Assembly (NCBI RefSeq): GCF_000332175.1
Contig: NZ_KB235910.1
Coordinates: forward strand, 497,278 to 561,277
DNA length: 64,000 bases
Direction: 5' to 3'
Source of the DNA: Pseudanabaena sp. PCC 6802
GTDB lineage: Bacteria; Cyanobacteriota; Cyanobacteriia; Pseudanabaenales; Pseudanabaenaceae
In this document: positions 11,402 through 52,539 of the stretch, piece by piece
Layout: the number at the start of each line of letters is the position of its first letter
Numbering within the stretch: position 1 is the stretch's first letter
Made by a program: the position numbers and the translations under genes
The notes under the pieces: model-generated
What the model saw: only the letters and a program-made list of their open reading frames with translations
What the model was told of the DNA's origin: nothing
The model's database searches: none

Positions 11402-11568
11402 TAGGGGCAGGTTTTAGACCAAAACCACCAATATAGCTATAGCCAATAGGCTCAGGATGGTGTGCAGGGGTGGAACCCCTGCGTGGGGGCTTAGCCTCCA
11501 CACTCGCGATAATAAACGATCCGTCTACGGCTATAAGAGTAAAAACTTCTCGCTAAACCTGCCCTTAC
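11402..11568. repeat. GGGCAGGTTT inverted-repeat unit with nested insert
   Basis: The outer arms TAGGGGCAGGTTTTAG and CTAAACCTGCCCTTA are inverted. The unit resembles the repeat at 22627-22696 and the core of the 128-bp MITE at 50.2 and 51.1 kb. A different repeat (11432-11535) sits inside it, so this looks like a nested insertion. Confidence 0.65.
11432..11535. repeat. TATAGCTATAGCC-type palindromic repeat
   Basis: This copy has the ends TATAGCTATAGCCAATAGG and CTACGGCTATA, and the two-hairpin core GCAGGGGTGGAACCCCTGC plus GTGGGGGCTTAGCCTCCAC. It matches the repeats at 52577-52680 and 57381-57491. Confidence 0.8.
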
Positions 11569-22626: not shown

Positions 22627-22696
22627 GTTAGGGGCAGGTTTAGATGAGGTTTAATCGGTTCTTGCCAATAGACTTTGGCAAAACCTGCCCCCTACA
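22627..22696. repeat. GGGGCAGGTTT inverted repeat
   Basis: TTAGGGGCAGGTTTAG and CAAAACCTGCCCCCTA form an inverted pair around a spacer of about 38 bp. The same motif pair occurs at 11402-11568 and in the 128-bp MITE at 50.2 and 51.1 kb. Confidence 0.65.
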
Positions 22697-49743: not shown

Positions 49744-50187
49744 CTATAAGAGATCGATCGCAGCTTCAAACTCCTCTAAAGCCTGTACGCTCCCTACTTG
49801 CCAAGATCTTTCTACTGCAACAGGAATAAGCTGTGTAAGGGGAATGCCCGGAAAAGTGGGGCTAGTATCGGATTGAATATATTGCCCATCTTGAAGTAGA
49901 TAGATTGCGAGCTTACCATTGCCATATATCCATACTTCCGGTACAGCGATCACCGCGTAGGTATCGATAGTCGTTTTGGAAGTGACATCGATTTCGATCG
50001 CGAGATCTGGAGGTGGATCGCCGTGTTCGAGGTGACGACGACCGATTATGCACTGATAATTGAGGATGTAGAAGCACGCATCTGGTTCTATCCCTGCCGT
50101 ACGATCGCGCTTAAAAGTAGTGGAGCCAAACGGTTCGTACTTTTTTCCTGCCTTTCTTAGCAGGAGTTTGACTAGATCTGAGACTAA

Positions 50188-50196
50188 ATCTTTTGG
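50188..50196. repeat. Target-site duplication of MITE copy 1, left
   Basis: ATCTTTTGG, repeated at 50325-50333. Confidence 0.9.
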
Positions 50197-50324
50197 CTGG
50201 TTGACTGACAAATCTCTGTAAGGGCGGGTTTAGTAAGCAATCAAACGCTTTCAATACAAAGCTTTTCGGCAAAACCCGCCCCTACGATAATCTGGGCTTT
50301 TCAGGACTTTTGTCAGTCAACGAG
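50197..50324. mobile_element. 128-bp MITE, copy 1
   Basis: The inverted ends are CTGGTTGACTGACAAA and, on the other strand, CTCGTTGACTGACAAA (15 of 16). The target duplication is ATCTTTTGG. The interior has TAAGGGCGGGTTTAG and CAAAACCCGCCCCTA, and no coding capacity. It splits a Uma2 gene. A second copy of the same length lies at 51145-51272. Confidence 0.93.
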
Positions 50325-50333
50325 ATCTTTTGG
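50325..50333. repeat. Target-site duplication of MITE copy 1, right
   Basis: ATCTTTTGG, as at 50188-50196. Confidence 0.9.
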
Positions 50334-50575
50334 TCTTTCATGTTCGGGGAGGGGAACCATAATTTCTAAATTACTCTGGTAGTAGGCAATGCGAGCGGCA
50401 CGCTTTTCTCCTAACTCCTGTAGAATCGCTTCAAATTCTTCCCAACTGACATGGGGAATTGTAACGACACTCCCTGGTGCGAGGTGCATTTGACTAATTG
50501 GTTTAAAAACAGGAGTTGTCGGAGTCATTTTATTAATCGATTAGGGAAATAATACATAGTCAAGTTTATTGCGGA

Positions 50576-51115
50576 TTATTGCGGTGCCCTGAGCAAATCA
50601 AATACTTGCTCGGCCATCAAGTCTAAAGAGATATCTGGTAGGGTAGGTAGGCGATCGCTCCCTTGACACAAGGTAACACGCAGATCGGGGAATAGCACCA
50701 TAATTACCTGCTCGGACGAATCGATTAACCATCCAAGTTGCGTTCCCTCCCGCATACATGTTTGGATTTTAGCGATTAACTTGGTTGTGCTCTGCTCTGG
50801 AGACAGGATTTCGATTGTCCAGTCGGGTGCGCCCGCGATCGCTGTATTTTCTAAAGGAATGCGATCGCGGTGAACGATCGTAATGTCAGGGACGACTGAA
50901 CTGTTGCTGAGAGTGCAGCGAAGTTCTGGAAATGCTTCATAGGGCGAATTTAGCCGATCTATCAGTGCAGTTAGGCGCTTTTGCAACATACTATGATGAA
51001 GTGTAGGCATAGTTTTTTGCTCGGCTTTTCCCTCTACAAATTCCCAGGCTGGCGATTCCTCAATCCTAGGAAGCCTCAGAAAATCTTGCAGTGTAAGTTG
51101 CTCTGTAGTAAGCAT
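50576..51115 (-). CDS. Uma2 family (DUF820) putative endonuclease
   Basis: From ATG 51115 the protein has 179 residues: LTTEQLTLQDFLRLPRIEES, RCTLSNSSVVPDITIVHRDR, APDWTIEILSPEQSTTKLIA and GTQLGWLIDSSEQVIMVLFP. An ATG at 51220 lies in the MITE and its added 35 residues are not of the family. The start and the MITE insertion leave 29 bp between them, so the promoter may have been altered. It is a close relative of 33358-33918. Confidence 0.9.
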   Translation of the reverse strand: MLTTEQLTLQDFLRLPRIEESPAWEFVEGKAEQKTMPTLHHSMLQKRLTALIDRLNSPYEAFPELRCTLSNSSVVPDITIVHRDRIPLENTAIAGAPDWTIEILSPEQSTTKLIAKIQTCMREGTQLGWLIDSSEQVIMVLFPDLRVTLCQGSDRLPTLPDISLDLMAEQVFDLLRAPQ

Positions 51116-51135
51116 AGTGTAAGGGCATAGGCAAT

Positions 51136-51144
51136 GAGGTGAAT
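51136..51144. repeat. Target-site duplication of MITE copy 2, left
   Basis: GAGGTGAAT, repeated at 51273-51281. Confidence 0.9.
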
Positions 51145-51272
51145 CTGGTTGACTGACCAATCTCTGTAAGGGCGGGTTTAGTAAGCAATCAAACGCTTTC
51201 AATACAAAGCTTTTCGGCAAAAACCGCCCCTACAATAATCTGGGCTTTTCAGGACTTTTGGCAGTCAATGAG
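51145..51272. mobile_element. 128-bp MITE, copy 2
   Basis: This copy has the ends CTGGTTGACTGACCAA and CTCATTGACTGCCAAA (other strand), and the perfect duplication GAGGTGAAT. It differs from copy 1 at a few positions, mostly in the ends. It lies between dapL and a Uma2 gene. Confidence 0.93.
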
Positions 51273-51281
51273 GAGGTGAAT
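51273..51281. repeat. Target-site duplication of MITE copy 2, right
   Basis: GAGGTGAAT, as at 51136-51144. Confidence 0.9.
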
Positions 51282-51303: not shown

Positions 51304-52539
51304 TTACACCGTAAATTTGTCGGCAATGCGCTGCATGGCTTCTTCCACGTTTTCGCGACTATTGAATGCTGAGATGCGGAAATAGCCTTCGCCCGCTGCT
51401 CCAAACCCAGAACCAGGCGTTCCCACCACATTACAACTGCTCAATAGCTTATCAAAGAAATCCCAACTAGATAGTCCATTGGGAGTTTTAACCCAGACGT
51501 AGGGGGCGTTAACACCGCCATAAACTGCTATGCCTGCGGCGGTTAACTTCTCGCGGATAATTCTGGCATTCTCCATGTAGAAGCCAATTAGTTCCTTCAC
51601 CTGTACCTGACCTGCTTCAGAATATACGGCTTCGGCTCCGCGTTGAACGATATACGAAACACCGTTGAACTTGGTAGATTGACGGCGATTCCACAGATTC
51701 CACAATTCCACATCCGAACCGTCAGCAGCTTTTGCCGTTAGTTTTTTGGGTACGACCGTGAAGGCGCAGCGCGTGCCGGTAAAGCCAGCATTTTTGGAGA
51801 AGGAACGGAACTCGATCGCGCAATCCCTCGCTCCCTCTATTTCATAAATCGAATGGGGAAGATTGGGATCGGTTATGAATGCTTCGTAAGCGGTATCGAA
51901 GAAAATGATGGAGCCATGCGCTCTGGCATAGTCTACCCAGGCTTTGAGATGTTCCTTAGTGGCAGTAGCACCTGTAGGATTATTGGGAAAGCAGAGATAA
52001 ATTAGATCCACTTTCTGACTGGGAATCTCGGCGGTGAAGTTATTGTCGGCAGTAATCGGCAAATATACCAAACCGCCGTATTCGCCGCGCTCGTTAGTAT
52101 CGCCCGTATGTCCCGCCATCACATTGGTATCGACATAAACTGGGTAAACGGGATCGGTAACCGCGATCGCGTTATCATCCCCAAAAATATCAAGGATATT
52201 GCCGCAGTCGCACTTAGAGCCATCGGAGATAAAGATTTCTGAAGCATCCACATCGCAGCCCCGCGCTTGGAAGTCATGGGCAGCAATTTTTTCGCGCAAC
52301 CAGGCATAGCCCTGTTCGGGGCCGTAACCCTTAAATGTATCGCGATTGCCCATATCGGCAATGGCTTGAATCATGGCATCGCGGCAAGCACTGGGTAACG
52401 GCTCCGTCACATCGCCAATCCCCAGTCGAATAATTTTGGCATCGGGGTGGGCAGCGGCAAAGGCATTAACCCGTCGGGCAATTTCAGGAAATAGGTAGCC
52501 AGCTTTGAGTTTGAGGTAGTTGTTGTTAATGGTTGCCAT
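51304..52539 (-). CDS. dapL: LL-diaminopimelate aminotransferase DapL
   Basis: DapL makes LL-diaminopimelate from tetrahydrodipicolinate in one step, for lysine and peptidoglycan; cyanobacteria use this pathway. The 411-residue PLP enzyme has [67 protein letters not shown] and the PLP-binding [15 protein letters not shown]. Length is usual. Confidence 0.97.

Follow-up and report, generated by a model that had tools for sequence, protein, structure and literature searches.

Tandem Uma2 genes and two MITE copies

The window, a 64,000-nucleotide stretch of Pseudanabaena sp. PCC 6802, contains a pair of tandem Uma2 genes (49744-51115, minus strand) downstream of an aminotransferase gene (51304-52539). 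One Uma2 gene is interrupted by copy 1 of a 128-bp MITE, and copy 2 is situated in the spacer between the aminotransferase gene and the nearer Uma2 gene, upstream of this second Uma2 gene (approximately 20 bp from its likely ATG) and downstream of the aminotransferase gene (at approximately 30 bp; Table 1). The copies differ from each other at 5 of 128 positions and have no coding capacity, with only chance ORFs overlapping the unit. Both have inverted ends, those of copy 2 (12 bp, 83% complementary) being weaker than those of copy 1, and both are flanked by perfect 9-bp duplications, which are different at the two sites (ATCTTTTGG versus GAGGTGAAT); the probability of a 9-bp match by chance is approximately 4e-6 per site. 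Within the window, TTGACTGAC is found 4 times, the expectation being 0.29. Copy 1 folds strongly (z of -5 and -6) because the inverted repeats themselves fold. The original prediction, made from the letters of the window, had described the two 128-bp copies with these ends and duplications, and all of them are present. The unit is an ordinary, non-autonomous MITE.

Table 1. Coordinates of the two MITE copies and the interrupted gene in the window
Feature	Position	Strand	Remark
Uma2 gene (PF05685) interrupted by copy 1	49744..50528	-	rejoined frame 215 aa
Left 9-bp target duplication of copy 1 (ATCTTTTGG)	50188..50196	.	
MITE copy 1, 128 bp, inside Uma2 gene	50197..50324	.	empty site in homologues
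Terminal inverted repeat CTGGTTGACTGACAAA, copy 1	50197..50212	+	16 bp, 94% complementary; IS4-family elements share ends
Palindromic core GTAAGGGCGGGTTT...AAACCCGCCCCTAC, copy 1, 68 bp	50218..50285	.	core start 39 bp from one end
39-bp frame, copy 1, minus-strand side of core	50286..50324	-	
Terminal inverted repeat, copy 1, other end	50309..50324	-	
Right 9-bp target duplication of copy 1	50325..50333	.	
Left 9-bp target duplication of copy 2 (GAGGTGAAT)	51136..51144	.	
MITE copy 2, 128 bp, intergenic	51145..51272	.	
Palindromic core of copy 2	51166..51233	.	
Right 9-bp target duplication of copy 2	51273..51281	.	

In silico removal of copy 1 together with one duplication left an uninterrupted reading frame (215 codons and a stop), and the rejoined 215-aa protein matched the Uma2 domain over its full length. 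A homologue search with this protein detected 31 related loci in the genome collection. Approximately 27 of them align without a gap over essentially the whole protein (64-73% identity) and have a single, uninterrupted target region where copy 1 is inserted. This gapless alignment shows the empty site of copy 1. The intact genes belong to other genera, and genomes can contain several Uma2 genes; they are homologues but not necessarily strict orthologues, and they inform on the site of copy 1 only. Within this scope, the predicted splitting of a Uma2 gene that rejoins in frame to 215 codons was confirmed, and the proposed comparison with empty sites in relatives revealed one target copy in the approximately 27 intact homologues. 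No relative carrying the unit without the duplications was found, these homologues having the empty site.

Related copies and IS4-family elements with the same ends

The host assembly comprises 5.62 Mb in 6 contigs and is 99.7% complete. A search for further copies, suggested with the original prediction, revealed eight matches to the MITE in the whole genome. A third copy, C5:3402530-3402657, likewise has a perfect 9-bp duplication (GTCAGAACC), and the three closest copies deviate from their consensus at 1, 4, and 4 of the 128 positions. The other matches, which are partial or have 77-86% identity, show degraded duplications or none. The end sequence, allowing up to 3 mismatches, occurs 98 times in the genome versus 34 times for the reversed control, and the same ends also enclose other interiors in this genome, in one element of 219 bp and in elements of the CCCTCATCCCC type with 156 and 153 bp.

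An IS with the same terminal repeats and 9-bp duplications, which had also been proposed as a search target, was found in many other cyanobacteria. This likely partner, an IS4-family IS approximately 1.29-1.36 kb long, has the ends CTGRTTGACTGACAAAA, is flanked by 9-bp duplications, encodes a transposase of 380-408 amino acids, and is spread across many cyanobacterial families. A search of the genome collection with the left half of the MITE gave no match; full-length IS elements were reached via pairs of ends approximately 1.3 kb apart. One of them (L101, 992-2314; 1323 bp) carries CTGGTTGACTGACAAAA at both ends, the duplication GGCGTTGAG, and a gene for a 408-aa transposase. With the 408-aa transposase as query, matches were obtained in 165 of 291 genomes, and most of the best loci have matching ends. 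The genomes G021, G025, and G026, of the same family as the host, each contain at least five near-identical full-length transposase copies, and these ends were present in the one example examined per genome. The consensus of 36 IS ends agrees with that of 82 MITE ends (CTGATTGACTGACAAAA). Elements with these ends are also found on the plasmids pSYSM of Synechocystis PCC 6803, ABRG53a of Pseudanabaena ABRG5-3, and pREC4 of Acaryochloris marina. Perfect 9-bp duplications flank 8 of the 18 tabulated IS elements, and one further element has a duplication with one mismatch. At L129, L130, and L135, a duplication fits by inspection when a single additional C adjacent to the left end is included; at these three loci and at L264, all full-length IS elements, the duplication is perfect only if this C joins the element.

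The best curated model for the transposase is NCBIfam IS4_2 (E values of 3e-42 to 5e-37), with scores of 128-145 bits that are below the curated cut-off of 152, a database convention and not a biological definition; a Pfam search of the transposase gave no match. In an alignment of 10 transposases, D103, D166, and E271 are invariant, and Y264, R267, and E271 correspond to the Y-2-R-3-E of the IS4 signature. The final K of the Y-2-R-3-E-6-K signature is replaced by Q in some of these sequences. A search for solved structures by transposase sequence returned nothing meaningful, and a literature search with the end sequence returned no relevant paper. The similarity between the MITE and the IS ends examined stops after the first 17-20 bp, so that this comparison gives no support to derivation from a known IS through internal deletion.

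In the host assembly, two single queries for an IS4-type transposase gave no match and a 10-sequence profile reached only E = 0.056. The first single query detects the transposase in genomes of the same family, which indicates that the search works at that distance. Since no such transposase was detected, the copies look orphaned in this genome, and they probably either outlasted an IS that has been lost or were moved by one that the genome contained only for a time. The original prediction had placed the transposase outside the window, which holds and extends to the assembly searches. Its non-autonomous MITE stands as well, with the transposase elsewhere, in ISs of other cyanobacteria that have matching ends and 9-bp duplications. 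Of the "active or recent" movement that it proposed, recent movement is supported by the retained perfect duplications, whereas current activity is not supported because no transposase of the IS4-type group was detected in the 99.7%-complete assembly.

We consider it very probable that the MITE copies are non-autonomous and owe their mobilisation to a transposase supplied in trans by an IS4-family IS with ends CTGRTTGACTGACAAAA. Judged from the shared ends and duplications, an IS4-type transposase would also be the mover of these particular copies. IS4 elements transpose by cut-and-paste. The DDE transposase would bind the ends and excise the MITE, which would then be pasted at staggered cuts 9 bp apart, generating the 9-bp duplications. 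A likely mobiliser can thus be named for very widespread short repeats of cyanobacteria, given that, of 291 cyanobacterial genomes, 130 contain the exact 17-mer end CTGRTTGACTGACAAAA, whereas the reversed control gave almost no matches.

Palindromic cores inside and outside the MITE

The IS4-type ends enclose several unrelated palindromes, and further interior types were found in other genomes. We collected 41 paired elements, 18 of which have duplications with at most one mismatch. A different set of 18 elements has the tetranucleotide GTAR exactly 39 bp from one end; these stem from approximately ten genomes and contain unrelated cores, including GTAGGGGCRGGTTT and GTAGGTTGGGT. In 1000 shuffles of the interiors, this offset occurred in 0.63 elements on average and in 5 at most, a comparison that overstates the significance because several elements are copies within one genome or genus.

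The GGGC(G/A)GGTTT palindrome is the interior of this MITE, and a minority of its copies in the genome have IS4-type ends. GTARGGGCGGGTTT, with one mismatch allowed, has 62 matches versus 7 in the control, and the 37 aligned solo core copies fall into two length classes and nearly all contain GGGCAGGTTT, not GGGCGGGTTT. The original prediction had noted the core repeat at 11402 and 22627 of the window as well; a repeat is located at both positions, but its sequence is GGGCAGGTTT, one base off GGGCGGGTTT. At 11402-11568, the core arms are 154 bp apart and split by another palindromic stretch (GGGGTGGAACCCC).

Some solo cores are flanked by other inverted repeats, such as TTAGGAGATTTCTA, which surrounds the core in G097 and G114 as well. 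This frame around the GGGCAGGTTT core is present at L174, L160, and L181 in the host genome, at L196 and L224 in G097, and at L200 and L214 in G114; the framed core, occurring in three cyanobacterial families, may represent another family of MITEs. At L208 (G014) and L205 (G016), the core is enclosed by a third inverted frame, (CTGAT)GTTACGTGGAA. The 67-bp core class at L148, L154, and L142 of the host genome has degenerate flanks, which resemble CTGTAAAWTTTTCRTTGA inverted repeats. The suggestion that the common repeat is the interior of mobile elements is therefore supported in part: it holds for this MITE, and some other copies are set in different inverted-repeat frames, but the majority in this genome display no IS4-type ends.

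It is tempting to speculate, from these sequence patterns, that cyanobacterial MITEs are modular, each frame of this type consisting of IS4-type ends plus approximately 22 bp of inner sequence around a swappable palindromic core at a fixed offset, with cores shared with frames that have unrelated ends. The palindromes might then act as cassettes, entering MITEs of different transposase systems or being exchanged between them. If so, core swapping would explain how such palindromic repeats spread without a transposase of their own. We regard this proposal as tentative. Another history of the core, which is compatible with mobilisation of the MITE by an IS4-family transposase, is that the core was born inside the MITE and that all solo copies are decayed MITEs. 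The copy at 22627 retains CTACAGAGATTT, which matches the inner flank of the MITE, and the MITEs of G017 have GGGCAGGTTT cores. However, the 37 aligned solo cores form two length classes, some enclosed by different outer inverted repeats (for example TTAGGAGATTTCTA, a frame also present in two further cyanobacterial families), and no flank of the examined core copies matches the 16-bp IS4-type end with 5 or fewer mismatches, which makes this history unlikely.

To our knowledge, movement of the RAYT or IS200 type does not produce 9-bp duplications. This bears on the possibility that a tyrosine transposase (RAYT, IS200-like) spread the unit as a REP- or BIME-type palindrome, with the inverted ends and duplications being secondary. 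The genome has six Y1 transposase matches, and the core has GTA(A/G) at its start and (C/T)TAC at its end, resembling the GTAG-tagged REP dimers described for cyanobacteria (PMC3733652). The GTAG in the core is part of a long stem. In this genome, the core was absent from the fetched flanks of all six Y1 loci (0/6), and three copies have perfect 9-bp duplications, unlike RAYT/IS200-type movement, so that a REP/RAYT origin of the 128-bp unit is disfavoured and, in our estimate, highly improbable. Equally improbable are domesticated regulatory hairpins (a terminator or RNA-stability element) in place of parasites, a reading that draws on the strong folding of copy 1 and the position of copy 2 directly after one gene and before another, but copy 1 destroys the Uma2 gene, its folding is explained by the inverted repeats, an Rfam search gave no match, the copies contain no terminator-like sites, and the single promoter-like match in the region is at chance level.

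Comparison with known elements

The partner element resembles IS4-family ISs (IS10/IS50-like groups) in its DDE transposase with Y-2-R-3-E spacing, its CTG(A/G) ends, and its 9-bp duplications; it differs in scoring below the NCBIfam cut-off, and the 128-bp copies differ in having no transposase. According to the passages on Nezha (Zhou et al. 2008) in PMC10969869 and PMC3049150, that element is likewise a short cyanobacterial MITE whose proposed mover is an IS with the same ends, and, as described there, its proposed partner is ISNpu3-like. In Anabaena sp. 90, MITEs form hairpins of 77-541 bp and break genes, and the genome contains the IS4/IS10-group IS ISAsp10 of 1270 bp (PMC3542288). By description, they are similar to the elements studied here in being gene-breaking hairpin MITEs. 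However, the authors saw no similarity of the MITE ends to ISs of that genome (PMC3542288). GTAG-15 REP dimers of Anabaena variabilis were found within longer palindromes (PMC3733652, in the part considered), and thus share with our MITE a GTAG-bounded palindromic core nested in an outer palindrome. Their outer palindrome has the consensus TATAGGA... and, in that part of the source, no stated link to an IS4-type end or target duplications. Taken with the IS4-family partner identified in other genomes, the 128-bp unit is a MITE of a known kind; the pattern of interchangeable cores is its interesting part, and scattered palindromic repeats are now linked, in a testable manner, to IS4-type transposition.

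In G023 (L056, 1008-2397), an IS110-family transposase gene lies between ends of this type. We rejected it as the partner, considering its IS110 Pfam matches and the MITE sequence on both sides. It is inserted within a MITE of this type, so that this palindromic MITE was itself a target of IS110 insertion.
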